A stretch of 64,000 nt of DNA. Origin: Streptomyces spinoverrucosus. Lineage in GTDB: Bacteria; Actinomycetota; Actinomycetes; Streptomycetales; Streptomycetaceae. Both the position numbers and the translations under genes were made by a program. This document shows positions 267 to 36,652 of this stretch, piece by piece. The notes beneath the pieces are model-generated. The model did not search any database, was not told the origin of the DNA, and saw only the letters and a program-made list of their open reading frames with translations. The first letter of the stretch is position 1, and every line of letters starts with the position of its first letter. The DNA lies in contig NZ_JADPZX010000002.1 in the NCBI RefSeq assembly GCF_015712165.1, positions 186,001-250,000 of the forward strand. Reading direction: 5' to 3'.

Positions 267-278
267 TAATTATAGTAT
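267..278. promoter_or_regulatory. Putative shared operator/-10 site A
   Basis: TAATTATAGTAT sits 27 bp before the GTG at 306 in the divergent gap between an acyl-CoA dehydrogenase and a crotonase. It is a strong AT-rich island in GC-rich DNA and closely matches sites at 5712, 15552 and 36100. TATAGT inside it could itself be a -10 hexamer, so operator and promoter readings are both open. Confidence 0.5.
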
Positions 279-305
279 CCGCACTGATTACACCAGGAGC
301 GCGAC

Positions 306-1127
306 GTGACCGATCTCTACGCCCCGTTCACGAGCCTGACCTTCGAGCGGCCCGCGCCCGGCGTGCTCCGCGTGGTGCTGGACGGACCCAATCTCAACGC
401 GGTGGATCCGCGCACGCACGGGGAACTGGCCGACATCTGGCCGGTGATCGACCGGGACGAACAGACCCGGGTGGTGCTGGTCCAGGGGGCGGGCCGGGCG
501 TTCTCCGCGGGCGGGACCTTCGACTCCATCGAGGCGATGACCGAGGACTACGCGGTGCGCGCCCGGGTGATGCGCGAGGCGCGGGACATGGTGTACGGGG
601 TGATCAACTGCTCGAAGCCGGTGGTCTCCGCGATCCACGGACCCGCCGTCGGCGCGGGGCTGGTCATCGGCATGCTGGCGGACATCTCGATCGCCGCCCG
701 CACCGCGAAGATCGTCGACGGGCACACACGGCTCGGGGTCGCGGCCGGTGACCACGCCGCCATCTGCTGGCCGCTGCTGTGCGGCATGGCCAAGGCCAAG
801 TACTACCTGCTGACCTGCGAGGCGCTCACCGGTGAGGAGGCCGAGCGGATCGGGCTGGTGTCGAAGTGCGTGGCCGACGAGGACGTGCACGCGGAGGCGC
901 TGCGCGTGGCGAAGGTTCTGGCCGCCGGGCCCGCGAGCGCGATCAGCTGGACCAAACGGTCCCTCAACCACTGGTACCGCACCGCGCAGCCGATCTTCGA
1001 GGCCTCGCTCGGGCTTGAGTTCCTCGGGTTCGCGGGACATGAGGTCGTCGAGGGGCTGGCCGCGCACCGGGAGAAGCGGGCCCCGGACTTCGAGGGCGTT
1101 GGCGGCAAGAACCCGCTCGCTCTCTGA
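306..1127 (+). CDS. Crotonase-superfamily protein lacking both hydratase glutamates
   Basis: A 273-residue enoyl-CoA hydratase/isomerase-fold protein with a GTG start. The CoA and oxyanion-hole segments are clear ([11 protein letters not shown] near residue 65 and [12 protein letters not shown] near 118). Aligned by eye to rat crotonase, the two catalytic glutamates (E144, E164) fall on Val and His, and the loop that is normally PGAGG reads AAGDHAA. It shares the His and the AGD loop with the crotonase at 5831, suggesting a related subgroup whose chemistry may not be simple hydration (isomerase, hydrolase or retro-Claisen activities occur in the superfamily). It is followed 27 bp later by a hot-dog dehydratase gene, probably its operon partner. 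Confidence 0.85.
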
Positions 1128-1154
1128 CCGCCGCCCACCCGAAAGGATCCGATC

Positions 1155-1655
1155 ATGGCGCAGGAACCGACGACGACCGAAGTCCGCCCGCTGGTACGGG
1201 GGTTGACCTACGAGGAGATGCCGGTCGGGCAGGTCTTCCGGACCGCCCGCCGGACCGTCACCGAGACCGACCTGGTCAACTTCATCACCTGGGGCGGTTT
1301 CACCGAGCCGCTCTTCTGGGACGCCACACACGCGGCGGAGGGCGGGTACACGGGCCGTCTGGTCCCGGGCGGCCTGACCTACTGCCTCGCCGAAGGACTC
1401 GTCCTGCAGACGAACGTGCTGCACGGCACGGGCCTCGCCTTCCTGCACATGGAGCTGACCGTGCGGGGGCCGGTGTATGTCGGGGACACGCTGTACGCGA
1501 TCGTCGAGACGACGGGCTGCCGTCCCTCCAGCAAGCCCGGCCGGGGCGTGGTGACCAGCAGGATCACCGTATGCAATCAGCGGGACGAGGAAGTCCTGGT
1601 CTACTGCCCGGTGCGGCTGATCCGCGGCCGGGACTACGAGGCGCCCACGCCCTGA
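1155..1655 (+). CDS. MaoC/FAS1-type hot-dog dehydratase-like protein
   Basis: A 166-residue single hot-dog protein. The segment VTETDLVNFITWGGFTEPLF followed by GRLVPGGLTYCLAEGL resembles the start of MaoC-like (R)-hydratases, where helix residues contact the acyl-CoA. However, the typical D-x(4)-N/H hydratase pair is not obvious: at that place it reads FWDATHA. It lies 27 bp downstream of the crotonase gene and likely works with it on the same CoA ester. The 3' end overlaps the convergent glycosidase-like gene by 22 bp. Hydration or dehydration of an enoyl-CoA is inferred from the fold and context; a thioesterase role cannot be excluded. Confidence 0.75.
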   Translation: MAQEPTTTEVRPLVRGLTYEEMPVGQVFRTARRTVTETDLVNFITWGGFTEPLFWDATHAAEGGYTGRLVPGGLTYCLAEGLVLQTNVLHGTGLAFLHMELTVRGPVYVGDTLYAIVETTGCRPSSKPGRGVVTSRITVCNQRDEEVLVYCPVRLIRGRDYEAPTP

Positions 1656-3034
1656 GAGCGGGGTACGAGGCTCAGCCCGGTATCCGGGCGGGCTGAGGGT
1701 GCGGCGGCGAAGGCTCCCCCACCCACCCAGTCGGACGGCATCGCGGGCCGCGGCGCGAGCTCGTGGTCCGGGACCGCCATCGCGTACAGCCGGGTGTAGC
1801 GGAACTTGGCCTCCAGGTTGTCCAGGACCGACCAGTACTCGTAACCGCACACCTCCACCCCGGCCGCCACCAGCCCCGCGAGCCAGGAGAGCCTGGCCCG
1901 CAGCAGCTCACGTCGGCGGGTGTCGTCGCTGTGTCCGGTGTCGTCGACCAGGTCCAGGTCGCCCATGCCGTTGTCGACGACGGACAGCGGCGGCAACAGG
2001 CCCCCGTACAGCTCGTACAGGCCGGCGACGGCGTCGGCGAGCCCTTCGGGGATGATCGGCCAGCCGTACGCGGTCGTCTCCACGTCGTCGAAGGGGACGA
2101 TCGCGAAGCCGAGGCCCATGAGCAGACGGTTGACCTCGTTGAGGGCGCTCTGGCAGTGCGCGGTGGGCAGCACGCGGGGCAGGTTCTCCGGTGCGGTGAC
2201 GCGGAACGGGGTGTGCCAGGACAGGCCCAGCAGGTCCTGGGGGGTGGCGATGATCTCCAGGTCGCCCGCGCGCACGCAGCCGGTGGCCGCCACGGGGGCG
2301 ATGTCGTCCTCGGTGACCATGTGCGTGCCGAGCAGCAGGGGGTCGAGGAAGACGCGGTTGGTCCAGCTCTCCAGGCGCTCCAGGGCGAGGCGGTCGTAGG
2401 GGTCGTCGGTGGCCGCGTAGCCGCCGACCAGGGTGACCGTCGTGCCGATCCGGCTGCTCACGCCGACGGCTCGCAGGGCCCGGGTCGCGAGTCCGTTGGC
2501 GAGCAGGATGTGGTGGACGGCCGCCAGTCCGGCGCGTCCCGCGGCCCGGCCCGGTGAGTACATGCCGGCCACGTGGTCCGCGAGGGTGGGTCCGGCCAGG
2601 TCGGTCGAGGTGATCCAGCGCTCCACCCGGTCGCCGAAGCGGCGGCCGAGTTCTTCGGTGTACGCCGCGAAGTGCTCGGCGGTGTCGCGGGCGAGCCAGC
2701 CGCCGGCCGCGTCCAGCCAGGGCGGGAGCGTGCGGTCGAGGAGGGTCAGCGCGGGGCGCTTGCCGTGGGCGAGCAGTGCGTCCAGCGCGCGGTCGCAGCG
2801 GTCCAGGGCCTGCCGGTCCCAGCTGTCCGGCCCTTCGGGCTGGAGGCGCGGCCATCCGGCGACCATGCGGTGCGTGTCCGGGGCGAGGCCGAGCAGCAGA
2901 CGGATGTCGTCGGTCCACTGCCGGAAGTGTCCGCCGCGCTCCGGCGGGGGTGGCAGCGGCGCCGCGATGGTGTCCGCGGTGGCGACGCCCCAGTCGACAC
3001 CGCGCAGGGATTCGTGAAGGAAACCATCGCTCAT
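1634..3034 (-). CDS. Glycoside hydrolase family 1-like protein with altered catalytic residues
   Basis: A 466-residue protein following the GH1 (beta-glucosidase) layout: HFRQWTDDIRLL near residue 36, RVERWITSTDLAGP near 136-150, LGLSWHTPF near 260, GWPIIPEGL near 330, VVDNGMG near 352 and EYWSVLDNLE near 410. In true GH1 enzymes the acid/base is the Glu of an NEP motif and the nucleophile the Glu of TENG. Here the matching places read TDL (Asp145) and VDNG (Asp354), so both carboxylates are one methylene shorter and the NEP motif is lost. Classical retaining glycosidase activity is therefore doubtful. It has its own upstream palindrome at 3065 and sits 3' of the GMC oxidoreductase gene inside the island, which suggests a role with the same hydrophobic substrate. 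That role is unknown. Confidence 0.75.
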   Translation of the reverse strand: MSDGFLHESLRGVDWGVATADTIAAPLPPPPERGGHFRQWTDDIRLLLGLAPDTHRMVAGWPRLQPEGPDSWDRQALDRCDRALDALLAHGKRPALTLLDRTLPPWLDAAGGWLARDTAEHFAAYTEELGRRFGDRVERWITSTDLAGPTLADHVAGMYSPGRAAGRAGLAAVHHILLANGLATRALRAVGVSSRIGTTVTLVGGYAATDDPYDRLALERLESWTNRVFLDPLLLGTHMVTEDDIAPVAATGCVRAGDLEIIATPQDLLGLSWHTPFRVTAPENLPRVLPTAHCQSALNEVNRLLMGLGFAIVPFDDVETTAYGWPIIPEGLADAVAGLYELYGGLLPPLSVVDNGMGDLDLVDDTGHSDDTRRRELLRARLSWLAGLVAAGVEVCGYEYWSVLDNLEAKFRYTRLYAMAVPDHELAPRPAMPSDWVGGGAFAAAPSARPDTGLSLVPRSQGVGAS

Positions 3035-3064
3035 GGTGACCGTCCAGGCGGTGAATGGTTTAGC

Positions 3065-3080
3065 GCATTCAACTGAATGC
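3065..3080. promoter_or_regulatory. Perfect inverted repeat, likely operator (site H)
   Basis: GCATTCA-AC-TGAATGC, two perfect 7-bp arms around 2 bp, 31 bp upstream of the ATG of the glycosidase-like gene. The left half GCATTCAACT recurs exactly at 5720-5729, and CATTCAAC recurs at 28042-28049, each next to an AT-rich site. This may be a second regulatory motif of the island. Confidence 0.5.
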
Positions 3081-3162
3081 CCGCCGACCGGACGCTAACA
3101 CTTCGAGCAAACTACGACAATGTTTCGGCCAGATCTCCTCGGGCCGGGTCCGGGGCGCCGGA

Positions 3163-4764
3163 TCAGCCGGTCCCGAGGACGAGGTCGGCCGCCCGCCAGG
3201 CCATGGCCATGATCGGGCCGTTCAGATTGCCGGAGACCATGGTCGGCAGGACCGAGCAGTCGACGACGCGCAGGCCCTGGACACCGCGCACGCGCAGTTC
3301 GGGGTCGACGACGTCGGTCTCGGCCGGGCCCATCGCGCAGGTGCCGATGGCGTGGTAGCCGCAGCGGCCGTGTTCCAGGCCGGCGTCGATGATCTCCCGG
3401 TCGTCGCGGGTCTCGGATCCCGGCAGGGTTTCGGCCGTGATGCGGTCGGCGATCGGGACGGTCTCGAAGAGCTCGCGCATACGGCGGAAGAGGGCGGTTC
3501 CCACGGTGCGGTCGTGCTCGGAGCCGTAGTAGTTCGGGGTGATCGTGAGGGGTGCCTCGGGGTCGGCGGACGTGATGTGCAGGTTTCCCTCGGCAGTGGG
3601 ACGCAGGATGTAGCCGAGGCCCATCACGCCGGGCTCGCGCTCGACGCGGGTCTCCTTGCCCGGGACCTCGGGCGACAGGGACACCGGGGCGATGAGCAAC
3701 TGTGCGTCGGGGCGGGCGAGTTCGGGGCGGGTCTTGAAGAAGGCGATGACGTCGAAGGCGGGTGCGGCGAGGGGGCCGCGGCGCGTCGCCAGGTAGCGCG
3801 CCGCCGTCAGGGCCTGCCGCAGCGGGGTGCTCAGTGCCTTGTTGTAGCCGAGGTCGTCCTTCAGCCGGTACTGGACGACGAAGCAGCGGTGCTCTCGCAT
3901 CCGGCCGCCGACGTGGGGGCTGTCGACCAGGACGTCCACGCCCGCCGGCTTGAGCACCGACGCCGGTCCGATGCCGGAGAGTTGGAGGATCTTGGGCGTG
4001 GCGATGCCGCCGGCGGAGAGGATCACCTCGCGTCGGGCCCTGACGTCGGCTTCCCGGCTCCCGCTGCGGGTCCGTACGCCCACGGCCCGGCCCTGCTCGG
4101 TCAGGACCCTCGTCACCACGGTGTCCAGGGCGACGGTGAGGTTCGGGCGGTCCGCGACGGGGCGCAGGAAGGCGCGGGCGGCGCTGAATCGCCGCCCGTT
4201 CTTGATGGTGGCCGTGGTGTAGCCGATGCGTTCGTCGTCGCTCGCGTTGAGGTCGTCGGTGCGGCGCCAGCCGAGTGCGGTGCCGGCGGCGATGGCCTCC
4301 TCGCACAGCGGCTCCGGTCCGGGTGCCGTCGAGATGTGCAACGGCCCGCCCGTGCCGCGGAGTTCGGAGGCACCGAGGGCGTGGTCCTCGATCCGCCGGA
4401 AGATCGGCAGCATGGTGTCCCAGCCCCAGCCGGGGTTGCCGAGCCGCTCCAGCTCGTCGTAGTCGGCGCGGTCGCCGCGGTTGTAGACCATGCCGTTGAC
4501 CGAGCTCGATCCGCCGAGCGTGCGGCCGCGCACCCAGTGCTCGACGCGCCCGGTCGGGCCCACCGGTTCGACCGGGTAGTGCCAGGCGAACCTCGGGTCG
4601 CCCAGCAGCTTGCCGAAGCCCTTGGGCATCCTGATCAGCGGGGTGGTGTCCCTCCCGCCCGCCTCGATCAGCAGCACGGACGTCCGCGGGTCCGCGGAGA
4701 GGCGGTGGGCGAGCACGCATCCGGCCGAACCGGCGCCCACCACGACGTAGTCGAACGTGCTCAT
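3163..4764 (-). CDS. GMC-family FAD oxidoreductase (choline dehydrogenase-like)
   Basis: 533 residues. The N-terminal ADP-binding fold is DYVVVGAGSAGCVLAHRLS; GGSSSVNGMVYNRGD near residue 82 and GGIATPKILQLSGIGP near 255 match the two GMC signatures. Near the C-terminus, GYHAIGTCAMG carries the catalytic His and SGNLNGPIMAMA the usual Asn. It would oxidise a primary or secondary alcohol, with FAD passing electrons to a quinone or other acceptor. The start ATG (4764) overlaps the stop of the upstream crotonase gene by 4 bp (ATGA), so the two are probably translationally coupled. The substrate is probably a hydroxylated intermediate of the island pathway (inference). Confidence 0.92.
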   Translation of the reverse strand: MSTFDYVVVGAGSAGCVLAHRLSADPRTSVLLIEAGGRDTTPLIRMPKGFGKLLGDPRFAWHYPVEPVGPTGRVEHWVRGRTLGGSSSVNGMVYNRGDRADYDELERLGNPGWGWDTMLPIFRRIEDHALGASELRGTGGPLHISTAPGPEPLCEEAIAAGTALGWRRTDDLNASDDERIGYTTATIKNGRRFSAARAFLRPVADRPNLTVALDTVVTRVLTEQGRAVGVRTRSGSREADVRARREVILSAGGIATPKILQLSGIGPASVLKPAGVDVLVDSPHVGGRMREHRCFVVQYRLKDDLGYNKALSTPLRQALTAARYLATRRGPLAAPAFDVIAFFKTRPELARPDAQLLIAPVSLSPEVPGKETRVEREPGVMGLGYILRPTAEGNLHITSADPEAPLTITPNYYGSEHDRTVGTALFRRMRELFETVPIADRITAETLPGSETRDDREIIDAGLEHGRCGYHAIGTCAMGPAETDVVDPELRVRGVQGLRVVDCSVLPTMVSGNLNGPIMAMAWRAADLVLGTG

Positions 4765-5666
4765 CGCTCCCCCTGCTCCGACTGCTCCGACGACTCCGAC
4801 GGCTCTCCGAACGGGCGGAACTCCTCGTCCCGCCACCAGGGGAAGACGGGCGGCATGTCCTTGCTGACCCGGCCGGGGAAGGCCGGCGGGCGCTTGGCGA
4901 GGAACGACTGGACGCCCTCCACGGGGTCCGGGCCGCCGCCGATCTGGCTCATGATGCGCGAGTCCAGCCGGTGCGCGGTCATCGGATGCGGCTCGCCGAG
5001 CATCCGCCACATCATCTGGCGGGACAGCGCGACCGAGATCGCCGAGGTGTTCTCGGCGATCTCCCGGGCGAGTTCGTACGCCGCCGGCAGCAGGTCCTCC
5101 GGCGGGTGGACGGAGCGCACCAGGCCGGCCGCCAGCGCCTCGTCCGGGCCGAAGACACGACCCGTCGCCACCCACTCCATGGCCCGCTGCATGCCGACGG
5201 CCCGGGGCAGGAACCAGCCGGCCGCCGACTCCGGCACGATGCCGCGGCGAGCGAAGACGAAACCGAACTTCGCCGAGGTCGAGGCGAGCCGGATGTCCAT
5301 GGGCAGGGTCATGCTCGCGCCGACACCCGCGGCGGGACCGTTGATCGCCGCGATGACCGGCTTCGTGCTGGAAAAGATCCTGAGCGCGACCCGGCCACCC
5401 GTGTCCCGGTGCCACGCCCCGGCCTTGCGGTGGTCGAAGGAAGAGCCTCCGGAGCTCACGTCCGCGCCGGCGCAGAAGCCGCGCCCCGCGCCGGTCACCA
5501 CGATCACCCGGACCTCGTCGTCGGCGTCGGCCGCGTCCAGCACGTCCAGCAGGTCGCGCATCATCTGTGGGCTGAAGGCGTTCAGCTTCTCCGGCCGGTT
5601 CAGCGTGACGGTGAGGATCCGGTCCGCCACCTCGGCCCGCACGGTCTCGTACTCCTGCTCCGGCAT
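4761..5666 (-). CDS. Crotonase-superfamily protein (enoyl-CoA hydratase/isomerase-like)
   Basis: 301 residues, slightly long for the family. The CoA/oxyanion segments are GAGRGFCAGADVSS near residue 62 and NGPAAGVGASMTLPMD near 110. At the rat E144 and E164 places I read Ser and Phe, while GIVPES nearby supplies a Glu in the position used by enoyl-CoA isomerase-like members. The C-terminal extension is hydrophilic and rich in Ser, Glu and Gln. The gene is first in a two-gene unit with the GMC oxidoreductase and divergent from the crotonase at 5831; site B lies 46 bp upstream. Hydratase versus isomerase cannot be settled by eye. Confidence 0.88.
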   Translation of the reverse strand: MPEQEYETVRAEVADRILTVTLNRPEKLNAFSPQMMRDLLDVLDAADADDEVRVIVVTGAGRGFCAGADVSSGGSSFDHRKAGAWHRDTGGRVALRIFSSTKPVIAAINGPAAGVGASMTLPMDIRLASTSAKFGFVFARRGIVPESAAGWFLPRAVGMQRAMEWVATGRVFGPDEALAAGLVRSVHPPEDLLPAAYELAREIAENTSAISVALSRQMMWRMLGEPHPMTAHRLDSRIMSQIGGGPDPVEGVQSFLAKRPPAFPGRVSKDMPPVFPWWRDEEFRPFGEPSESSEQSEQGER

Positions 5667-5711
5667 GCGCGTCCTCCGTCACTCAACGGGCCGGTTTCCA
5701 GAAAGCTTAAT

Positions 5712-5723
5712 TAGTTATAGCAT
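5712..5723. promoter_or_regulatory. Putative shared operator/-10 site B
   Basis: TAGTTATAGCAT lies in the divergent gap, 46 bp before the minus-strand crotonase start (5666). It matches site D (TAGTTATACGAT) at 10 of 12 bases. GCATTCAACT, identical to the left arm of the palindrome at 3065, begins at 5720 within it, so two motifs overlap here. Confidence 0.5.
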
Positions 5724-5758
5724 TCAACTCGTTCACGAGAGAGATCCGTGAGCGAGGT

Positions 5759-5822
5759 TCGGGATCCGGGTCGGGAGCCGGGTTCGGGAGCCGGGTTGGG
5801 GAGCGGGATTCGGGAGTGAGGG
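5759..5822. repeat. Five imperfect 12-13-bp tandem repeats
   Basis: Units of the form TCGGGAGCCGGGT run head to tail (5759, 5771, 5784, 5797, 5810). Units 2 and 3 are identical and the others diverge. The array sits in the leader of the crotonase gene and ends just before its ATG. It also creates a misleading in-frame GTG at 5816. Confidence 0.7.
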
Positions 5823-5830
5823 CGGCGGAG

Positions 5831-6598
5831 ATGGCGGATCTGGTGGTGACGGCCGTCGGACCGGTTCGGCTGGTCGAGCTGAACCGGCCGGAGCAGCTGA
5901 ACGCGATGAGCGAGGAGCTGCACACCGGCCTCACGTCCGTGTGGGACGAGGTCGCCGCCGACCCGGAGGCACGGGTGATCGTGCTGACCGGGCGCGGGCG
6001 GGCGTTCAGCGCCGGGGGCAACTTCGACATCATGACCCGGGTACAGCGGGACGCGGACTTCCGGGAACGGAACGTCGACGAGGCCCGGCGGATCATCACC
6101 GGCATGGTCCGCTGCCCATTGCCGGTGATCTCCGCGGTCAACGGCCCCGCCGTCGGCCTCGGTTGCAGCCTGGCCCTGCTGAGCGACCTGGTGCTAATCG
6201 CGGACAGCGCCTACCTCGCCGATCCGCACGTCCAGGTCGGGCTGGTCGCGGGCGACGGGGGCGCGCTCGTGCTGCCCCTGCTCGTGGGGCTGACCCGCGC
6301 GAAGGAACTGCTGTTCCTGGGTGAGCGGGTGAGTGCCGAGGACGCGGTCCGGACCGGCGTCGCCAATCGCGTCGTACCGAAGGACAAGCTCATGGACGAG
6401 GCCATGGACCTGGCCGGACGGCTGGCGGCGCTGCCCGCGCGGGCGCTGCGCGAGACCAAGCGGGCGGTGAACCTGCATCTGGAGCAGGCCATGGCCACCG
6501 TGCTGGAGCCCGCCCTGCTGGCGGAGCGGGACACCATGCACGACCCGGACCACATCGCGGCCGTCGAGAAGATCATCGCGTCGCGCGGCCGTCGCTGA
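5831..6598 (+). CDS. Crotonase-superfamily protein, His/AGD subgroup
   Basis: 255 residues from the ATG at 5831, preferred over the in-frame GTG at 5816 because the latter lies inside a tandem repeat while GAGGG at 5818-5822 is spaced 8 bp from the [16 protein letters not shown] and NGPAVGLGCSLALLSD are the oxyanion-hole segments. The two hydratase glutamates are replaced by Ser and His, and the normal PGAGG loop reads VAGDGGA, as in the crotonase at 306, so the two are probably close paralogues. It is the first gene of a unit with an acyl-CoA dehydrogenase (18 bp downstream) and an LLM oxidoreductase. The exact reaction is not assignable. Confidence 0.85.
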   Translation: MADLVVTAVGPVRLVELNRPEQLNAMSEELHTGLTSVWDEVAADPEARVIVLTGRGRAFSAGGNFDIMTRVQRDADFRERNVDEARRIITGMVRCPLPVISAVNGPAVGLGCSLALLSDLVLIADSAYLADPHVQVGLVAGDGGALVLPLLVGLTRAKELLFLGERVSAEDAVRTGVANRVVPKDKLMDEAMDLAGRLAALPARALRETKRAVNLHLEQAMATVLEPALLAERDTMHDPDHIAAVEKIIASRGRR

Positions 6599-6616
6599 GC
6601 GGAGAGGGGCAGTCGG

Positions 6617-7759
6617 ATGGACTTCGCGTTCAGCGAGGAGCAGGAGGAACTGGGGCGCACGGTACGGGCGTTCCTGGCGGACACCTCGCCCGAGGGTGAG
6701 GTACGGCGGCTGATGGAGACCCCGGAGGGTTTCGACCGGGCCTTGTGGCGCCGGATGGGGACGGAGCTGGGTCTGCAGGGGCTGGCCGTCCCCGAGGAGT
6801 ACGGCGGTGCCGGGTGCGGGCCGGTCGAAGTGGGCGTGGTCATGGAGGAGATGGGCCGCGCGCTGCTGTGTGCGCCGTTCCTGTCCTCGGCCGTGCTCGC
6901 GACGACCACGCTGCTGCGCTGCGCCGACGAGGAGGCACGCAAGCGTCTGCTGCCGGGACTGGCCTCCGGCGAACTCGTCGCGACGGTTGCCCTGACGGAG
7001 GACTCCGCCCGCTGGGACGCCCGAGGCGTGCGGCTCACCGCCCGTGAATCGGGCGGGAGTTGGCTGCTGGACGGGCACAAGATGTTCGTCCTCGACGGCG
7101 CCGCCGCCGATGTCGTCCTCACCGTCGCCCGGACCGACGACGGGATCGGCGTCTTCTGCGTGGAGGGCGACGCACCCGGGCTGACGCGAGAGCCGCTGCC
7201 CACCTTGGACCCGACCCGCCGACAGGCGCGCCTCGACTACGCCGGCGTACCGGCAACGCGGCTGCGGACACACGGAGACGGCTGGGACCTGGTCGCGGAG
7301 GTCCTCGACCGGGCGGCGGTGGCGCTGGCCGCCGAGCAGGTCGGGGTGGCGTCCCGGGCGCTCGACATGGCGGTGGAGTACGCCAAGGTACGCCACCAGT
7401 TCGGGCGGCCCATCGGCTCCTTCCAGGCCGTGAAGCACCTGCTGGCCGACGTCCTGCTCGAAGTGGAGTCGGCCCGCGCGGCCGCGCACTACGCGCTCCT
7501 CGCCGCCGAGAGCGAGGCCCCCGACCTGCCCGCCGTGGCGAGTCTGGCCAAGGCGTTCTGCTCGGATGCCTGTCTGCAGGCGACGGCGGAGAACATCCAG
7601 GTCCACGGCGGCATCGGCTTCACCTGGGAGCACCCGGCCCACCTGTATCTCAAGCGGGCCAAGACGTCACAACTGCTGTTCGGCGACCCGGCCTTCCACC
7701 GGGAACGGCTCGCGCAGCGCATCGGACTGGACGCGGTCACGGTCGAGGGAGCGGCATGA
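6617..7759 (+). CDS. Acyl-CoA dehydrogenase, short type
   Basis: 380 residues. MDFAFSEEQEELGRTV and AVPEEYGGAG mark the N-terminal helical domain; HQFGRPIGSFQAVKHLLAD and NIQVHGGIGFTWEHPAHLYLK mark the C-terminal domain. The usual Y-E-G-T motif carrying the catalytic Glu is absent; the tail reads SQLLFGDPAFHRERL, as in the paralogue at 21022. That form is common among subunits of heteromeric actinobacterial dehydrogenases, so it may need a partner. The stop overlaps the next ATG by 4 bp (ATGA), coupling it to the LLM oxidoreductase. Electron acceptor presumably EtfAB at 28066. Confidence 0.9.
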   Translation: MDFAFSEEQEELGRTVRAFLADTSPEGEVRRLMETPEGFDRALWRRMGTELGLQGLAVPEEYGGAGCGPVEVGVVMEEMGRALLCAPFLSSAVLATTTLLRCADEEARKRLLPGLASGELVATVALTEDSARWDARGVRLTARESGGSWLLDGHKMFVLDGAAADVVLTVARTDDGIGVFCVEGDAPGLTREPLPTLDPTRRQARLDYAGVPATRLRTHGDGWDLVAEVLDRAAVALAAEQVGVASRALDMAVEYAKVRHQFGRPIGSFQAVKHLLADVLLEVESARAAAHYALLAAESEAPDLPAVASLAKAFCSDACLQATAENIQVHGGIGFTWEHPAHLYLKRAKTSQLLFGDPAFHRERLAQRIGLDAVTVEGAA

Positions 7760-11139: not shown

Positions 11140-11143
11140 GGTC

Positions 11144-12709: not shown

Positions 12710-12733
12710 GTCGATCGCTCCTGTGAGGTTTCG

Positions 12734-14264: not shown

Positions 14265-14283
14265 TAAATAGATAACCTATTTA
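14265..14283. promoter_or_regulatory. Putative shared operator site C
   Basis: TAAATAG-ATAAC-CTATTTA, two perfect 7-bp arms around 5 bp, 41 bp upstream of the aldehyde dehydrogenase GTG. On the opposite strand it contains TAGGTTATCTAT, related to the other island sites. It is the most symmetric AT-rich site and controls the unit that includes the GntR gene. Confidence 0.55.
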
Positions 14284-16353: not shown

Positions 16354-16354
16354 G

Positions 16355-23354: not shown

Positions 23355-23371
23355 AGCGGTTCCCTGTGCGT

Positions 23372-24948: not shown

Positions 24949-24949
24949 G

Positions 24950-25861: not shown

Positions 25862-25875
25862 CCTCGACTCCTCGA

Positions 25876-27920: not shown

Positions 27921-28022
27921 GGCGCCTCCTCGCGGCTCAGTGCCCAGATCTTCCAGCTATCAGCGCAATCAGTCAACCAATTCGACGGATTCAAGGCTAG
28001 GTATCGCGCGCCGCCGATCCAT

Positions 28023-28034
28023 ATAGTTAACTAT
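28023..28034. promoter_or_regulatory. Putative shared operator site E, perfect palindrome
   Basis: ATAGTTAACTAT is a perfect 12-bp palindrome 31 bp before the etfB GTG, in the gap divergent with the PaaK-like gene. TAGTTAACTAT aligns with site B allowing one gap. CATTCAAC follows at 28042-28049, as in sites B and H. Confidence 0.55.
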
Positions 28035-28065
28035 TAGAACTCATTCAACCAACCGAAGGGGTGTC

Positions 28066-28845: not shown

Positions 28846-28873
28846 CCCGACCCCCGGAAAGGAGCGCGCCACC

Positions 28874-29829: not shown

Positions 29830-29869
29830 CCTTTCACCGCTCGGGCCTTCCCTTCCACGCACGATACAA

Positions 29870-29885
29870 CTAAAATCGCTAACTG
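29870..29885. promoter_or_regulatory. Putative shared operator site F
   Basis: CTAAAATCGCTAACTG; the reverse strand reads CAGTTAGCGATTTTAG, sharing CAGTTAG with site A (260-266). It lies 28 bp before the amidohydrolase ATG and just after the restored etfA stop. Confidence 0.45.
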
Positions 29886-29913
29886 ATTACAACCATTGAC
29901 CCGAAGGAGCGTC

Positions 29914-30993
29914 ATGTCGAAGATCTGGGTCAACTCGGGGGACTCGCACGTGATGGAACCCGCCGACGTGTGGACCGAGAGGCTGCCCGCGCGGCTCGGC
30001 GCTCGTGCCCCGCGCAGTGAGCGCGGCGAGAAGTACGAGATGCTCTACATCGACGGCGAGCGCATCGACCGCCAGCTCGGCGACTTCATGGACGCGATGC
30101 GCCCGCCGGGCGCCTGGGACCTGAAGGTCCGGCTCAAGGACCTCGACCAGGAGGGCGTGTGGGCCCAACTGGCCTTCCCCTCCATGGGTTTCTGGCTCGT
30201 GTCGATCACCGACCGGGAGCTCGCCCGGGAGACCGTGCGGGCCTGGAACGACTGGGCGCACGAGGAGATCCTCAAGCGGAACAAGCGCGTGATCACCACC
30301 GCCTGTGTCTCCACGGCCGACATCGGCGACGCGGTCGCCGAGCTGGAGCGGGCGGCGGAGATGGGCTTCCAGGCGGTGTTCCTGCCCTGCTCGACACGCG
30401 AGGGCGAGGAGTACGCCCTCGACCGCTGGGAGCCGCTGTGGACGGCGGCCGAGCGGGCGGGCATGGTGCTCGGGTTCCACATCGGCACCGGCGGTCAGAA
30501 CGTCGTCTTCCGCGGGCCCGGCGGCGCCGTCGTCAACTACATAGAGACGACCTACCCGGGGATGCGCGTGGTGTCCCACATGGTCGCGGGCGGCGCGCTG
30601 GACCGTCACCCCGACCTCAAGATCCTGATCGCGGAGGGCGGCGCGGGTTGGGTGCCCGCCATCGGTGACCGCATGGACGAGGCGTACCGCCAGCACGGCA
30701 TGTTCGTCCGGCCGAAGCTGAGCCGGCTGCCCAGCGAGATCATCAGGCAGCAGGTGTACGCGTCCTTCCAGCACGACAAGAGCTCGGTGGAGATCGTCGA
30801 GTCGACCGGCTACCGCAATGTGATGTGGGGCGACGACTACCCCCACCTGGAAGGCACCTACGGCCACACCCAGTCCACGCTCCACGACCTGTTCGACGGC
30901 GTGCCGGACGACGTCCGCGAGCGTGTCACGCGCGGCACCTTCAACGAGCTGTTCAAGCTGCCCGAGCAGACTCCCCAGGAGGCGGCCGTCTGA
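29914..30993 (+). CDS. Amidohydrolase-2 family metal-dependent hydrolase/decarboxylase
   Basis: 359 residues from the ATG at 29914 with GAAGGAG at 29902-29908. NSGDSHVMEPADVW near residue 6 is the N-terminal metal motif; LGFHIGTGG near 188, VVSHMVAGGALDRHPDLKIL near 215 and MWGDDYPHLEG near 305 supply the His and Asp expected of the family. Members hydrolyse or decarboxylate cyclic or aromatic acids and often occur in actinobacterial steroid and terpenoid clusters. It leads a four-gene plus-strand unit. A ring-opening hydrolase role is an inference. Confidence 0.88.
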   Translation: MSKIWVNSGDSHVMEPADVWTERLPARLGARAPRSERGEKYEMLYIDGERIDRQLGDFMDAMRPPGAWDLKVRLKDLDQEGVWAQLAFPSMGFWLVSITDRELARETVRAWNDWAHEEILKRNKRVITTACVSTADIGDAVAELERAAEMGFQAVFLPCSTREGEEYALDRWEPLWTAAERAGMVLGFHIGTGGQNVVFRGPGGAVVNYIETTYPGMRVVSHMVAGGALDRHPDLKILIAEGGAGWVPAIGDRMDEAYRQHGMFVRPKLSRLPSEIIRQQVYASFQHDKSSVEIVESTGYRNVMWGDDYPHLEGTYGHTQSTLHDLFDGVPDDVRERVTRGTFNELFKLPEQTPQEAAV

Positions 30994-31016
30994 GCTCCGC
31001 CGGCGGCGAGACACCT

Positions 31017-33425
31017 GTGACCACGCCTGAATACCCCGAGGACCTCGAGCGGCCCGGGCTCGTCAGGACCGGGCGGTCGACCTTCGTCAGGCCCGTCCGG
31101 CCCGAGGACGCCGACCGCCTGGTGGCCTTCGTCGGCAGCCTGTCCCGGGCCACCCTGGCCTATCGCTCGCTCGGCCCGGTGGTCCGCGCCCGCGACGACG
31201 TCATCCGGCGCGGCGCGCACGTCGACTACCTCAATGAACTGGCCCTCGTCGCCCTGGCCGGCGACGAGATCGCCGGGCTGGTGCGGTACGTCCGTGACCC
31301 GGAGGATCCGGAGCACGCCGAGGTCACCTTCACCATCCGGGACGACCATCAGAGCGAGGGGTTCGGCCGGCTGCTGCTCGAGCACATCGCCGCCGCCGCA
31401 CGCGCCCGCGGCATCCGGGTGCTGGAGGCCGACGTCCTGGCCGACAACACCCGGATGATCAACGTGTTCTTCGGCTCCGGCTACCGGATCGAGACCGGTC
31501 CACCCGGCCAGATCATCCACTTCGAGATCGCCATCGACCCGCAGACTCTCGCCGTCGCCCGGGCCGAGCGCCGGGAGCAGACCGCCGTACGGCGCTCTCT
31601 GCGGCCCCTGCTCGAACCACGGTCGGTGGCGGTGATCGGGGCCAACCGCAGCCCCTTGACGATCGGTCACGAGATCGTGGCCAACCTGCTGCGCGGCGGC
31701 TTCGGCGGCGACGTGTACCCGGTGAACCCGCGGGCCGAGCGGGTCGCCGGGACACGGGCGTACGCGAGTATCGCCGAGTTGCCCGAGCCGCCGGAGCTGG
31801 CGCTGGTGGCCGTACGGGCCGAGGCGGTGCCCGAGGCCGTACGGGAGTGCGCGCAGGCCGGAGTGAAGGCGGTGGTCGTCGTCTCCACGGGCTTCGGTGA
31901 GACCGGACCCGAGGGCAGGGCGACCGAGCTCGAACTGGCCCGTTCCGCCCGCTCCTCCGGTATGCGGCTGGTGGGCCCGAACTGCATGGGCGTGGTCAAC
32001 ACGACGCCCGCCGCGCGGCTGGCCGCGACCTTCTCCCCCGCCCTGCCGGCGCCCGGCCGGGTGGCGATGTCCAGCCAGTCCGGGCCGCTGGGGCTCGCCG
32101 TGCTCGACTTCGCCCGGCGGCTCGGGCTCGGCTTCTCGGGGTTCGTGTCGGTGGGCCACGCCGTCGACGTCTCGACCAACGATCTGCTCCAGTGGTGGGA
32201 GGAGGACCCGGGGACCTCGGTGATCCTGCTGCACGTCGAGACCTTCGGCAATCCGCGCCGGTTCGCCCGGATCGCCCGCCGGATCGCGCCGCGCAAACCG
32301 ATCGTCGCAGTCCACCCCGGCCCCGCCGACTCGGCGGTGAGCTCGCTGTTCGCCCAGTCCGGCGTGATCCGTACCCGCAGTCTCCAGGAGCTGTTCGACG
32401 TCGCCCTGTTGCTCGCCCACCAGCCGCCCCCGCCCGGCGACCGGGTCGCCGTGATCACCAACGCCGGCGGGCCCGCGGCGCTGACGGCGGGCGCGTGCGC
32501 GGCGAGCGGAATGCGCGTCCCCGCACTCGGCGAGCGCACCCGGCAGACACTCCGCGCGGCCCTGGCACCGCACGCGGACGTCTCGAACCCGGTCGACCTG
32601 ACCCCCAGGGCCACCGCCGCGCACTACCGCGAGGCGCTGGACGCGGTCCTGGCCGACGACGATGTCGACGCGGCCATCGTGCTGTTCATGCCGCCGCTGG
32701 CGGACAAGGCCGACGAGGTGGCGTCGGCGATCCTCGACGCGGCCGCCGCCCGCCCCGACAAACCGGTCGTCGCCAGCTTCCTGGCCGGCGCGGGCGTCGC
32801 CGAACTCCTGCACCGGGGCGACCTGGTGGTGCCGACGTACACGTTCCCCGAGGCGGCGGCCGGCTCCCTCGGACACGCGGCGGCCTACCAGGCCTGGCGC
32901 AGCACCCCGGCCGGCGTCGTGCCCGACCTCCCAGGAGTCGACGTCGAGCGGGCACGCGCGCTGCTGGCGGGACGCCCGCCCGGCCCGGTTCCCGAGCGGA
33001 TCGCCACCGAAGTACTCGCCTCGTACGGAATCGCCGTACGCGACACAGAACCCGGTCCCGGCCCGGACGCGTTCCTCTCCGTCTCCTCCGACCCGGTGTT
33101 CGGGCCGGTGGTCGCCTTCGGCCTGACCGGGGACTACGCCGACCTCATGGCGGACGTCGTGTACCGGGTCACGCCGCTCACCGATCGCGACGCCCGCGAG
33201 ATGGTCCGCTCGCTGCGGGCGACTCCCCTGCTGGAAGGCCGGGGTGTGGAGTTCGCGGCGCTGGAGGAGACCGTCCTGCGGATCTCGGCGATGGTCGAGG
33301 ACCTGCCCGAGATCGAAGCGCTGGACCTGCGGCCGGTGCGGCTGCTGTCGCCCGGGGACGGGGTGGCCGTAGCGCACGCGACGATCCGGGTCTCGGCCAA
33401 CGCAACGGGAGGGACTCACTCATGA
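31017..33425 (+). CDS. Pat-like GNAT plus NDP-forming acyl-CoA synthetase fusion lacking most of the ATP-grasp
   Basis: 802 residues, GTG start with a weak upstream GGCGAG. Residues 15-165 are a GNAT acetyltransferase (DDHQSEGFGRLLLEHIAAAA is the acetyl-CoA loop). Residues 195-650 follow the CoA-binding and ligase domains of NDP-forming acyl-CoA synthetases (PRSVAVIGANRSPLTIG, LVGPNCMGVVNT, SQSGPLGLAVLDFARRL). After VLASYGIAVRDTE (about residue 665) the protein jumps directly to SSDPVFGPVVAFGL, skipping roughly 100 residues that normally bind ATP, including a PHKSDVGGV-like motif. Known relatives are protein lysine acetyltransferases that control acyl-CoA synthetases, so control of island ligases is a good guess. 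Confidence 0.85.
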   Translation: MTTPEYPEDLERPGLVRTGRSTFVRPVRPEDADRLVAFVGSLSRATLAYRSLGPVVRARDDVIRRGAHVDYLNELALVALAGDEIAGLVRYVRDPEDPEHAEVTFTIRDDHQSEGFGRLLLEHIAAAARARGIRVLEADVLADNTRMINVFFGSGYRIETGPPGQIIHFEIAIDPQTLAVARAERREQTAVRRSLRPLLEPRSVAVIGANRSPLTIGHEIVANLLRGGFGGDVYPVNPRAERVAGTRAYASIAELPEPPELALVAVRAEAVPEAVRECAQAGVKAVVVVSTGFGETGPEGRATELELARSARSSGMRLVGPNCMGVVNTTPAARLAATFSPALPAPGRVAMSSQSGPLGLAVLDFARRLGLGFSGFVSVGHAVDVSTNDLLQWWEEDPGTSVILLHVETFGNPRRFARIARRIAPRKPIVAVHPGPADSAVSSLFAQSGVIRTRSLQELFDVALLLAHQPPPPGDRVAVITNAGGPAALTAGACAASGMRVPALGERTRQTLRAALAPHADVSNPVDLTPRATAAHYREALDAVLADDDVDAAIVLFMPPLADKADEVASAILDAAAARPDKPVVASFLAGAGVAELLHRGDLVVPTYTFPEAAAGSLGHAAAYQAWRSTPAGVVPDLPGVDVERARALLAGRPPGPVPERIATEVLASYGIAVRDTEPGPGPDAFLSVSSDPVFGPVVAFGLTGDYADLMADVVYRVTPLTDRDAREMVRSLRATPLLEGRGVEFAALEETVLRISAMVEDLPEIEALDLRPVRLLSPGDGVAVAHATIRVSANATGGTHS

Positions 33426-34396
33426 AGGTCGGCATCTACTTCGACCTGCGCAACCCGCCCGAGTGGCAGCGGAGTTGGTCGCGGGTGTACGGCTTCGCGC
33501 TGGAGATGTGCGAGGAGGCGGACCGGCTGGGTCTGGACTCCGTCTGGTTCTCCGAGCACCACGGCTTCGAGGACGGGTATCTCCCCCAGCCGCTCACCAT
33601 GGCGGCCGCGGCCGCTGCCCGCACCCGCCGGGTGCGCCTGGGCACGGCGGTCATCCCCGCTCCGCTGCACGCGGCCCCGGAGATCGCCGAGCAGGCCGCG
33701 GTCGTGGATCTCATCAGCGACGGCCGCCTGGACCTCGGCCTCGGCACCGGCTACCGGGTCCCCGAGTACCGGCTGTACGGCGCCGACCTGGGCAGGCGCT
33801 ACACCACGACCGACCAGCGGGTACGGCAGATCCGCGGTCTGTGGGCCGAATCGCTGGTCACTCCCGGCCCGGTCCAGGACCCCCTGCCGATCTGGCTCGG
33901 CTACCAGGGTCCGCAGGGCGCCCGGCGGGCCGGCCGGCTCGGCACGGGCCTGCTGTCGCTCAACCCGGCGCTGCTGGCGCCGTACCTGGACGGGCTGGCC
34001 GAGAGCGGACACGACGGGTCGGCGGCCAGGATGCAGGGCTCGTTCACCACGTTCGTCACCGAGGATCCCGAGGGCGACTGGCCGGTGGTGCGCAGACATC
34101 TGGCCTACCAGTGGGACAGCTACCGCCGCTACATGGTCGAGGGGACCGACCAGCCGGTCCCGCGCCCCATCGATCCCGAGAAGTGGCGGGAGAAGGGGCT
34201 GAACGCGACCGGGTTCGGGCAGTTCCTGTACGGCACCCCGCAAAAGACGGCCGAGGCCATCAGGGCGTATGTGGCGGGGCTGCCGGTCGAGGGCGTGTTC
34301 CTGTGGGCCTCGCTGGCCGGGATGCCGGAGGAGATGGTGGCCCGGCAGGTGCAGCTCATCGCCGGGAAGCTGCGGCCGCTGCTTGCCGATGTCTGA
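33422..34396 (+). CDS. LLM-class flavin/F420-dependent oxidoreductase
   Basis: 324 residues, ATG overlapping the previous stop by 4 bp. MKVGIYFDLRNPPEWQRSWS, LGLDSVWFSEHHGFEDGYLP and DLISDGRLDLGLGTGYRVPE are luciferase-like barrel motifs. This member resembles alkanal-monooxygenase-like proteins more than the one at 7756. It may be an FMN- or F420-dependent monooxygenase or dehydrogenase. Its place between the Pat-like gene and a hot-dog thioesterase gives no clear substrate. Confidence 0.86.
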   Translation: MKVGIYFDLRNPPEWQRSWSRVYGFALEMCEEADRLGLDSVWFSEHHGFEDGYLPQPLTMAAAAAARTRRVRLGTAVIPAPLHAAPEIAEQAAVVDLISDGRLDLGLGTGYRVPEYRLYGADLGRRYTTTDQRVRQIRGLWAESLVTPGPVQDPLPIWLGYQGPQGARRAGRLGTGLLSLNPALLAPYLDGLAESGHDGSAARMQGSFTTFVTEDPEGDWPVVRRHLAYQWDSYRRYMVEGTDQPVPRPIDPEKWREKGLNATGFGQFLYGTPQKTAEAIRAYVAGLPVEGVFLWASLAGMPEEMVARQVQLIAGKLRPLLADV

Positions 34397-34412
34397 AGCG
34401 AGGAGGCACACG

Positions 34413-34916
34413 ATGTCCACGACGCCTTGGGCGGGGGCGGATTTCCAGGAGCCGCCGCGCACACCCGGCGGGGTGGCGCTGTGCGGGGCGTGCCGCGGCG
34501 CCGGTTCCTGCCGGCTGGGCGTGCGGCGCGAGCGGCTCGGCGAGGACGGCGTGGCGTCGTTCGAACTCGCCTGCCCGCGTGACCAGGAGGGCGGGCCCGA
34601 GGTCGCGCACGGCGGCTGGACGGCGGCCGTGCTGGACGACTGTCTCGGCCATCTGCCTCTGCTGCACCGGGTGTTGAGCGTGACGGCGGAGTTGACCGTG
34701 AGCTTCGTCAAGCCGGTGCCGGTCGAACGTCCGCTTCAGGTGCGGGCCTGGGTGGAGAAGCGGGAGGGCAGGCGCTGGTACATCGCGGGCGAGATGGTGC
34801 TCCTGCCGACCCGCGCCGTGCTGGCCCGGGCCTCCGGGATCTGGGTGACCCGGGACCGGGGCCATTTCGCACGCCATCAGCAGTGGCTGGCCGCGCAGGA
34901 CGGCGGGACTCAGTAG
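34413..34916 (+). CDS. PaaI-type hot-dog thioesterase family protein
   Basis: 167 residues from the ATG at 34413, with a near-perfect AGGAGG at 34401-34406 spaced 6 bp. GGPEVAHGGWTAAVLDDCLG near residue 65 holds the HGG motif of PaaI-like thioesterases, followed by AELTVSFVKPVPVERPL. An N-terminal CGACRGAGSCRLG, with three Cys, is unusual and might bind metal. It could release CoA from stalled intermediates. The 3' end overlaps the convergent dehydrogenase gene by 7 bp. Last gene of the amidohydrolase unit. Confidence 0.85.
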   Translation: MSTTPWAGADFQEPPRTPGGVALCGACRGAGSCRLGVRRERLGEDGVASFELACPRDQEGGPEVAHGGWTAAVLDDCLGHLPLLHRVLSVTAELTVSFVKPVPVERPLQVRAWVEKREGRRWYIAGEMVLLPTRAVLARASGIWVTRDRGHFARHQQWLAAQDGGTQ

Positions 34917-36061
34917 GAGCGCAGTCCCATGCTGCGGGCGATGCCGTTGCGCTGGATCTGACTGGTGCCCCCGGAGATCGTGGCCACGATCGACTCCCGG
35001 TACCGGAAGCTCATCACGCTCTCCGTCGAGAAACCGTGCCCCGCGAGGACCTGCATCCCGAGCCGGGCGGCCGCCACATAGGTCTCGGACCCCTTGAGCT
35101 TCGCCATCGAGCCCTCCCGCGTGCACGGCTTGCCCTGGGCGAGCAGCCAGGCGGCGCGGTAGGCGAGCAGCCGGGCGGAGTCGATCTCGGTCTGCAGGTC
35201 GGCCATGGCGTGGGCGAGTGCCTGGAAGTTGCCGATCGGACGGCCGAAGGCGTGCCGGGTGCGGGCGTACTCCAGCATCTCGTCCAAGGTGGCCTGCGCC
35301 GCTCCCAGGTATCCCCCGCTGATGATCACCTTCTCCAGTTCGATGTTGGAGAGCATGACCTTCCAGCCTTCGTCGCGCGGGCCGACGAGGTTCTCCTTGG
35401 GGACGAGGGCGTCGTGGAAGAAGACCTCGTTGGTGCCCAGGATGTGCCGGGCCAGCGTCGGGGTCCGGCGTATCTCGACGCCCTCCGTCGCGGGGTCGAC
35501 GAGCAGGAGGCTGATGCCGCCGTGCTTGGGCTCCCGGGGGCCGGTGCGCACATAGGTCGCGATGGTCGTGTCGGGCAGGCCGCCGCCGGTGCACCAGGCC
35601 TTCTGGCCGCGCACCAGGAAGTGGTCGCCATGGTCATCGGCGGTGGTGCGCAGCGCCGCGGCATCCGATCCGCTGTCCGGCTCGCTGAGGCCGACGGCGA
35701 GGCGGTGGCGCCCTGTCATCACCAGGTCACGAATAAAGGCACGCTGGGCGTCGCTGCCCCATCGGAACACGGTGATGCCGGGGATGAGCACGCCGATATA
35801 GCACATGGCGACGTCGAAGCTGGCCCGCCCGAGCTCCTCCGCGATCAGGATGAGCTCCAGCGGACCGCCGCCGTCGCCGCCCTCCTCCTCGCTGAACGGG
35901 AGCGAGAACCACCCCAGCTCGGCCATGCCCCGGAACAGTTCGGGCGGCACGACGCCCTCCTCGTCCCACCGCTTGGCCTTCTCGGCCGGGCACACGTCGG
36001 CGACGAACTGCCGTGCCGTCGCGCGCAACAGATCCTGCTCGTCGGTCAACCCGAAGTCCAC
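34910..36061 (-). CDS. Acyl-CoA dehydrogenase
   Basis: 383 residues from the GTG at 36061, preferred over the GTG at 36067 because GAGGAG (upstream, ending at 36066) is spaced 5 bp from it. MDFGLTDEQDLLRATARQF, VGLSEPDSGSDAAALRTTAD, RGQKAWCTGGGLPDTTIATY and VLAGHGFSTESVMSFRYRES define the family. The C-terminus reads SGGTSQIQRNGIARSMGL, with Gly in place of the medium-chain Glu. It is the last gene of the island; site G lies 39 bp upstream and marks the island edge. Confidence 0.93.
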   Translation of the reverse strand: MDFGLTDEQDLLRATARQFVADVCPAEKAKRWDEEGVVPPELFRGMAELGWFSLPFSEEEGGDGGGPLELILIAEELGRASFDVAMCYIGVLIPGITVFRWGSDAQRAFIRDLVMTGRHRLAVGLSEPDSGSDAAALRTTADDHGDHFLVRGQKAWCTGGGLPDTTIATYVRTGPREPKHGGISLLLVDPATEGVEIRRTPTLARHILGTNEVFFHDALVPKENLVGPRDEGWKVMLSNIELEKVIISGGYLGAAQATLDEMLEYARTRHAFGRPIGNFQALAHAMADLQTEIDSARLLAYRAAWLLAQGKPCTREGSMAKLKGSETYVAAARLGMQVLAGHGFSTESVMSFRYRESIVATISGGTSQIQRNGIARSMGLRSY

Positions 36062-36652
36062 GGCCACTCCTCGTCAGCACATGGGGATATTCATCTATCT
36101 AATTATTCTATGTTAGCGGATAAGGCGGCGGCTGGCAGGAGGCCTGCGGGGAGAGGCAACGGACCAAGGGGCCGTCCCTGGCCGCGTCGACAGCCCTGCC
36201 GTTGCGGGGTGCGGGAGACGAGAACGCCTCGTCCGCGACAAATGGAACAGGCTCAGCCGGCAAGCGGGTCGCCGACGGGCGCGCCGCGCTTGCTCCCCCG
36301 GCGAGGCCGCACGCGGATCGCTGACCCCTAGGGCCCGACTGCGCGTGTTCCCAGGCCTCAGTTTCCTGCCAGACCAGGCGACAGTCGCTGTCCGATCGGC
36401 CTGAAGATGACCGAGTTCAACGGAGCGTAGTCAGCGCCAAGTCAGCAGGGGAGCGATGAAGTCGGGTGATGACATGGGCTTTCAGTCAGCACCGACCAAG
36501 CCCACAAGACGGCCCTCCTAGCACTGACATAGGCGCAACACGCACACCCCGCCCCCGAACTATGTAGCCCCACCACATGTGCCCCTGACCTGCAAATTCC
36601 TACCGTGTGCGCACACACACCCGTCCCCACCGCACACGAGGAAGTGGCGCAC
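36062..36652. other. 590-bp non-coding boundary of the catabolic island
   Basis: No reading frame here has convincing Streptomyces codon bias. It contains site G near its left end, then GC-poorer, irregular sequence with short frames, and the presumed promoter of the transporter near the right end. I found no transposase motif or clear att-like repeat. It separates the CoA-ester island from ordinary chromosomal genes and could be an old junction. Confidence 0.6.
36100..36111. promoter_or_regulatory. Putative shared operator site G
   Basis: TAATTATTCTAT differs from site A (TAATTATAGTAT) at only two positions and lies 39 bp before the last dehydrogenase start. Neighbouring CTATCTA and GTTAGCG add to the AT-rich block. 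No similar site appears to the right, so it marks the end of the putative regulon. Confidence 0.5.

Follow-up and report, generated by a model that had tools for sequence, protein, structure and literature searches.

A catabolic island with operator-like sites before its genes

The stretch of DNA analysed here (the window; 64,000 nucleotides, C2:186001-250000 of the 8.85-Mb genome of Streptomyces spinoverrucosus, with C2 coordinates following the contig numbering) has a GC content of about 72% and contains part of a catabolic island in which one AT-rich, operator-like motif marks nearly all transcription units, as the original prediction had proposed. The seven sites of that prediction were all found where it had placed them, and no other stretch of the window reaches 14 A/T in 20 bases. 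Two further sites had been overlooked (3054-3069 and 27967-27982), and the window thus contains nine operators. It was also correct that none lies beyond 36.1 kb, since the nine matches in the window to the 16-bp matrix described below (score of at least 7) all start at or before 36089. The extent, given as a 36-kb regulon, was too small. The island measures about 61 kb, starts about 24 kb before the window and has 16 operators in all, the outermost upstream one at C2:161577, and AT-rich patches of the same kind reach C2:161568.

Within the window, operator H (256-271, ATACAGTTAGATAATT; predicted at 267) lies between gene starts at 197 on the minus strand and 306 on the plus strand, the latter opening a unit of enoyl-coenzyme A (CoA) hydratase-type and MaoC-type genes (306-1655, +). 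Operator O (3054-3069, AATGGTTTAGCGCATT), one of the two new sites, is weak (score 9.4) and stands 19 bp upstream of the start at 3034 of a glycoside hydrolase family 1 gene (1634-3034, -). A divergent promoter contains operator I (5709-5724, AATTAGTTATAGCATT; predicted at 5712), which serves an enoyl-CoA hydratase-type gene (4761-5666, -), followed by a GMC oxidoreductase (within the frame 3163-5682, -), and, on the other strand, genes for an enoyl-CoA hydratase-type protein, an acyl-CoA dehydrogenase and a luciferase-like oxidoreductase (5816-8781, +). Operator J (14266-14281, AAATAGATAACCTATT; predicted at 14265) precedes genes for an aldehyde dehydrogenase (start taken as the GTG at 14224), an acyl-CoA ligase, a thiolase and a ChsH2-type OB protein (9596-14224, -), and the distal gene of this unit encodes a regulator with a GntR helix-turn-helix (HTH) and an FCD domain, here called GntR1 (8829-9587, -). 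The location of this gene inside the island and behind the site at 14266 had been predicted.

Operator K (15549-15564, AAGTAGTTATACGATA; predicted at 15552) occupies the divergent promoter between the starts at 15496 (-) and 15598 (+), with an acyl-CoA dehydrogenase gene (14354-15496, -) on one side and SDR, enoyl-CoA hydratase-type, CoA-transferase III, SDR, DoxX and acyl-CoA dehydrogenase genes (15598-20975, +) on the other. The long minus-strand unit at 21022-27920, comprising genes for two acyl-CoA dehydrogenases, a thiolase, an SDR, an unclassified protein and a PaaK-like ligase, had been left without an operator, and the second new site, operator P (27967-27982, AATCAGTCAACCAATT), now supplies it 46 bp upstream of the start at 27920. 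Operator L (28021-28036, ATATAGTTAACTATTA; predicted at 28023) precedes the electron-transfer flavoprotein genes etfB and etfA (28066-29899, +), so that this divergent pair of units has separate sites, P and L, whereas H, I and K are shared. Operator M (29873-29888, AAATCGCTAACTGATT; predicted at 29870) is located 25 bp upstream of the ATG at 29914, and the first gene behind it encodes a PtmU3-like amidohydrolase-fold protein (29914-30993, +). The remainder of that unit encodes a nucleoside diphosphate-forming acyl-CoA ligase with a GNAT domain, a luciferase-like oxidoreductase and a thioesterase-fold protein (30825-34916, +). The final site of the island, operator N (36089-36104, ATTCATCTATCTAATT; predicted at 36100), is followed by an acyl-CoA dehydrogenase gene (34910-36067, -).

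The distance from operator edge to predicted start, given as 27-56 bp, was 19-58 bp in 11 of the 12 site-start pairs. For the gene at 5816 it was 91 bp, because the nearer GTG used in the prediction is out of frame with the 5816-6598 open reading frame (ORF).

The operator is a 16-bp palindrome

Expectation maximization (EM) on 14 AT-rich patches of the island, controlled with three shuffles within each patch, gave the operator consensus AATNAGNTANCTNATT, an AT-rich even palindrome of 16 bp. The palindromic model of width 16 fitted best (log-likelihood 100.3, versus 30.1-33.8 in the three shuffles), the remaining palindromic widths from 10 to 17 reaching 38-74. Among free, nonpalindromic models of widths 11-17, width 17 reached 114 versus 55-59 in shuffles, with about twice the number of parameters. 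The 12-mer register of the original prediction was dropped, since on these 14 patches the width-16 palindrome beats the other palindromic widths tried. Its gap-free alignment of the sites at 267, 5712, 15552 and 36100 was in part accidental, because the 12-mers mix two registers: those at 5712 and 15552 begin at operator position 4, and those at 267 and 36100 begin at position 12. Once placed in the 16-bp register, all of the predicted sites align without gaps. The operator matrix was built from 14 island sites, with masked N excluded from the scans. Its leave-one-out scores on the training sites were 15.5-32.6 bits against a GC-rich background, and it recovered the two additional sites in the window.

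A further copy of the matrix is over-represented at an offset of 9 bp, with a z score of 21.7 relative to shuffled flanks (72 sites with score of at least 10, from 17 loci); weaker offsets were 18 bp (z 8.5), 13 bp (z 6.7) and 8 bp (z 6.2). When half-sites were scored, the 9-bp signal was present both in the 15 sites of this genome alone (z 8.5) and in the other 57 alone (z 12.1). Suvorova et al. (2015; PMC4494728) describe many GntR regulators with weaker extra boxes 7-12 nucleotides (nt) from the centre. In the same work, the FadR-subfamily group with 2-nt spaced boxes (GntR, HypR, PrpR, UxuR) likewise combines a GntR HTH with FCD and has an A/T-rich, even-centred palindrome with an adjoining extra half-site, as in the island. 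The island half-sites differ in being TAGT/ACTA-like, with A where the FadR subfamily usually has K, and in having the extra half-site in a 9-bp register. Canonical TKGT/ACMA boxes were found at none of the 16 island sites, and the looser TNGT/ACNA was found at two, spaced by 3 nt in one case and by 2 nt in the other. The FadR-type pattern TNGTNNNACNA, proposed in the original prediction, fits only one of the 16 and was rejected as the common motif.

The operator is concentrated in the island and conserved in close relatives

With a matrix score of at least 10 there were 15 matches in the 62-kb island and one in 207 kb from elsewhere in the genome; the island count is to some degree circular, 14 of these sites having served to train the matrix. 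Eight 20-kb non-island stretches of the genome (L052, L055, L064-L069) contained one match at this score. The original prediction had expected the motif to be enriched in the island, and a genome scan agreed: the pattern AWWNAKNTANMTNWWT, with at most one mismatch, has 13 of its 18 genomic occurrences in the island (all six perfect ones included), while its reversed form, used as a control, occurs 7 times in the genome. For AATNAGNTANCTNATT with at most two mismatches there were 14 places, 8 in the island, and 5 for the reversed pattern. Both patterns were drawn from island sites and served to check for a second operator cluster; none was revealed by these whole-genome searches.

A close GntR1 (88-91% identity) is present in five other genomes among 150 of the genus, own genome included. 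In these five relatives the operator 16-mers are almost unchanged although their flanks have diverged: four mismatches or fewer were counted in 72 of 80 site-by-relative cells, with a mean identity among these of 97% that is flattered by this cut, and the ungapped flanks from 12 bp out are 52-56% identical, a value depressed by indels. Operators H, K and L are identical in all five, J and P have 0-1 mismatches in all five, and M and N have 0-2 mismatches in the four whose retrieved DNA covers them. Operator O has 0-1 mismatches in three relatives and 7 in two. Four of the eight remaining cells lie beyond the DNA retrieved (A in G068 and G140, M and N in G140), and another, operator I in G128, was misplaced by the script; this operator is identical in the other four relatives by script and in G128 by alignment.

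Two related GntR proteins and their relatives in other genera

GntR1 has an N-terminal GntR winged helix (PF00392, E value of 2.5E-18) and a C-terminal FCD domain (PF07729, E value of 9.8E-23), which places it in the FadR subfamily of the GntR family. A paralog, GntR2, is encoded at C2:174429-175157, in the part of the island just outside the window, and is 57% identical to GntR1. These were the only two matches to GntR1 in the genome at an E value of 1E-20 or lower (18 of 92 first-look candidates were scored). The stretch SRPTLREAFRVLE, which we take to be the recognition helix, is identical in both proteins. In the FCD domain, 24 aligned proteins show little or no variation at His157, His208 and His230; conserved His residues of FCD proteins can hold a metal and bind small carboxylates. 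E. coli FadR, which controls acyl-CoA genes, shares its GntR HTH family with GntR1, but its C-terminal domain is a different, acyl-CoA-binding one, whereas that of GntR1 is FCD. A structure model of predicted local distance difference test score (pLDDT) 83 and predicted template modelling score (pTM) 0.65 was used for nearest folds only; NanR of E. coli (PDB 6on4) ranked first among these and was also the best PDB sequence match (E value of 5E-19). NanR places three dimers on a repeat operator (PMC8012715). It uses GGTATA repeats and sialic acid, whereas the island unit is a palindrome stepped by 9 bp.

A scan of species genomes gave 281 stretches encoding a GntR relative, of which the best 80 were kept, corresponding to 79 distinct loci, and matrix matches with a score of at least 10 were counted over all 79 without selection. 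All 46 Streptomyces loci had a match (221 matches; 100 permuted matrices averaged 9.6, one reaching 141). Among the 33 loci outside Streptomyces, some of which are near-copies such as three from Williamsia, 18 had a match to this matrix trained on the island alone, giving 51 matches versus a mean of 4.4 and a maximum of 17 for 100 permuted matrices. In a control with loci of 3.5-3.7 kb, a match was found in 1 of 16 with a less related GntR (30-40%) and in 8 of 12 with a close GntR (47-92%). Gene order was examined at 25 loci. At loci of Actinomadura, Williamsia, Mycolicibacter, Nocardia, Pseudofrankia and Streptosporangiaceae, the sites stand before genes for acyl-CoA dehydrogenases, hydratases, CoA-transferases and ligases, whose arrangement is altered. 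When EM was run on 60 patches from eight other loci, the loci chosen for having matrix matches and the patches for A/T content alone, it returned AAttAgtTAacTaaTT at width 16 (207, versus 92 in one shuffle); widths 18 and 20 scored higher (218 and 225) with the same core.

Two further stretches, L062 (G068) and L059 (G014), encode remoter GntR relatives (47-48%) and contain three and four sites, respectively, with score of at least 10 in 20 kb, hinting at further regulons on the same code.

The operator recurs in a platensimycin (ptm)-type cluster

The PLATENSIMYCIN link starts from the gene behind operator M (29914-30993), whose product matches PtmU3 (PDB 6omp) with an E value of 8E-137. PtmU3 is a non-heme diiron beta-hydroxylase of diterpenoid biosynthesis with an amidohydrolase fold that takes CoA-bound substrates (PMC7782822, PMC10811679). 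Relatives of the PtmU3-like protein at an E value of 1E-70 or lower were present in 21 of 392 genomes of the genus (own included), and that of genome G294 was about 99% identical to PtmU3 itself by alignment. Beside it are DXP synthase, 3-dehydroquinate synthase II, LytB, polyprenyl synthase, P450 and squalene-hopene-cyclase-type genes. Because of this content and the PtmU3 match, the locus was taken as the ptm cluster of a Streptomyces platensis-type strain. In the 60-kb G294 stretch, tblastn with island proteins identified one GntR of the clade, a GntR-FCD protein 60% identical to GntR2 and 49% identical to GntR1, which is very probably PtmR1, a published repressor. The island-only matrix found five operators in this stretch, versus a mean of 0.36 and a maximum of 4 for 200 permuted matrices. 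By these identities and matrix matches, the island proteins resemble the probable PtmR1 both in sequence and in the operator that accompanies them.

The ptm proteins are 55% (PtmU3-like), 69% (acyl-CoA ligase), 78% (thiolase), 79% (acyl-CoA dehydrogenase), 64% (PaaK-like ligase), 71% and 68% (SDR) and 32-65% (others) identical to their island counterparts. The cyclase-type, polyprenyl synthase and DXP synthase genes of ptm, a biosynthetic cluster, have no counterpart in the families recognised among the island genes, and one clade GntR was found in ptm, two in the island. The same operator and a related GntR-FCD protein link the island to the PtmR1/PtnR1 systems of the platensimycin and platencin clusters of S. 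platensis. Six loci with a PtmU3-like gene less than 60% identical to that of the window were also compared. Those with a clade GntR had sites with score of at least 10 (five in G294, seven in G182 and four in G372), and those of G122 (contig 42), G183 and G068 (second copy) had neither a clade GntR nor sites at this score.

The genes ptmR1 and ptnR1 are described as pathway-specific negative regulators (PMC10847714), and a table of that paper gives 15 mg/L platensimycin for wild-type MA7327 versus 157-323 mg/L for the deletions. A review names PtmR1 a GntR-type repressor (PMC4538407), and it appears as a negative regulator or GntR-type repressor also in PMC7105598, PMC6006322 and PMC6596283. 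Passages on PtmR1 in the open-access literature give no operator, though subscription papers could hold one, and no paper joining AGTTAACT with GntR was found in the open-access literature.

In the joined G294 stretches L172-L174, a segment of 663 bp occurs twice, letter for letter, ending at 20825 and 26261. Each copy has an operator at its very end (20810 and 26246), and the second copy lies at the 5' end of the cyclase-type gene.

Other features of the island and its surroundings

An MFS transporter gene (36605-38035) and a gene for a PucR-type GAF regulator (38077-40041) come after the island, and the matrix scan found no operator there. The upstream part, outside the window, includes a DDE transposase gene (PF13546; L054:1145-2407, +) and a gene for a second amidohydrolase-fold protein (L054:5275-6456), which is closest to 4dzi (E value of 7E-52) and remoter from PtmU3 (E value of 9E-19). 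There are two luciferase-like oxidoreductases in the island, at 7756-8781 (+) and within the frame 32192-34396 (+); the nearest solved relatives of the former are F420-dependent methylenetetrahydromethanopterin reductases. The ORFs 3095-4720, 7566-8771, 24945-25895, 33416-34711 and 33463-34677 gave no family and were discarded as wrong frames, the families having come from other frames.

Discussion

The motif recurs at a consistent position before genes, is conserved, and keeps company with one GntR clade. We consider it likely that the island forms a real and coherent regulon, for which an operator has been identified and a probable regulator can be named. More specifically, judging from sequence comparisons, it is quite probable that the island is one regulon in which GntR1 and GntR2 are PtmR1-type repressors of terpenoid-CoA catabolic genes.

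The original prediction had offered the alternative that the AT-rich core is a mere -10 element. The sites would then belong to ordinary promoters of a 72% GC genome and look alike because all -10 boxes do. By eye, several operators do hold TANNNT-like hexamers at a plausible distance from the start codon, and -10 hexamers may overlap the operators. However, what the sites have in common is a 16-bp palindrome with a half-site in a 9-bp register, more than a bare hexamer; the 207 kb of other genome DNA gave a single match despite its AT-rich patches; and the motif accompanies one GntR clade across genera, from which it was recovered anew, and is absent from the three PtmU3-like loci lacking that clade. 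We therefore regard this explanation as very improbable. The palindrome could instead be the operator of another regulator encoded elsewhere, for instance of the TetR or MarR type, with the GntR genes as bystanders. The lack of canonical FadR boxes at all 16 sites would fit such a regulator, as would the GntR loci outside Streptomyces that lack a site. Against this, the families identified in scanned island genes include no regulator besides the two GntR-FCD proteins (some ORFs gave no family), and the sites follow the GntR clade, including in ptm, where the published repressor is a GntR protein, which leaves this reading improbable, if less so than the previous one. A division of labour between the two proteins is a considerably stronger contender, somewhat short of an even chance: one GntR alone may act on the sites and the second on targets of its own, or the two may work as a heterodimer. 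GntR1 and GntR2 occur together in all five other genomes with a close GntR1, and other genera again show loci with two related GntR genes, both of which argue for separate roles; the identity of SRPTLREAFRVLE in the two proteins was considered in the same connection.

Several observations weigh against one regulon under PtmR1-type repressors. The individual palindromes are imperfect, with 66 of 128 pairs complementary, versus 44 +/- 5 and a maximum of 61 in shuffles. In the comparison of five relatives, operator E was not found in G122, and operator O is weak, and diverges in G011 and G068. No site with score of at least 10 was found at 15 of the 33 GntR loci outside Streptomyces. These comprise 12 Frankia or Frankiales, 2 Rhodococcus (Prescottella) equi and 1 Acidimicrobiia, four of them with more than 600 masked bases, and nine that were examined have few island-type genes beside the GntR gene. 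Close to the regulator gene (within 1.5 kb), a site was found at just 28 of the 46 loci from Streptomyces and 14 of the 33 from elsewhere. In the G294 genome, the pattern occurs at 13 places versus 10 for the reversed control, 4 of them within 21 kb of the cluster; since this is near the control level, only the clustering of these four in ptm speaks there. The five ptm sites also show little of the +9 copy, and the identification of G294 as S. platensis, and of its GntR as PtmR1, derives from cluster content.

If the island is nevertheless one regulon of PtmR1-type repressors, GntR1 and GntR2 dimers would bind AATNAGNTANCTNATT and prevent transcription from a position 19-58 bp ahead of most first genes, a location that suits repression by covering the promoter. 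Repression by the island proteins is suggested by analogy with the published ptmR1 deletions. The third half-site in the 9-bp register suggests that an extra subunit or dimer can join. The substrate would be a polycyclic terpenoid, given PtmU3, the genes in common with ptm and the beta-oxidation gene set, and is perhaps glycosylated, as the presence of a glycoside hydrolase family 1 gene next to operator O would suggest. The GntR proteins would be released by a carboxylate or CoA intermediate of this terpenoid, perhaps a diterpenoid, and our first guess for the inducer is the acid or CoA ester of a breakdown intermediate. On release, the genes for uptake, CoA activation, PtmU3-type oxygenation and beta-oxidation would switch on together.

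We further propose, with about equal weight for and against, that a PtmR1-type repressor and its operator form an old code of actinobacterial terpenoid-CoA catabolism that travels with the genes. The ptm cluster would then be a captured piece of a catabolic regulon joined to terpene and aromatic-acid synthesis, with repressor and operators kept and one operator now at the 5' end of a cyclase-type gene, and the operator itself would be an array of half-sites stepped by 9 bp, a variant within the FadR subfamily. With the same site and a sister repressor in the ptm cluster, a single switch seems to have been used for breakdown as well as for making an antibiotic. The regulators belong to a known protein family. 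What looks new, judged by the open-access literature, is the operator variant, its extent and the link with platensimycin control. A testable operator is now available for the PtmR1 clade, and it offers a handle for finding the substrate, the inducer and, by scanning, further members of the regulon. Through its regulator, operators and enzymes, an apparently uncharacterised catabolic island of many actinobacteria is tied to platensimycin biosynthesis.

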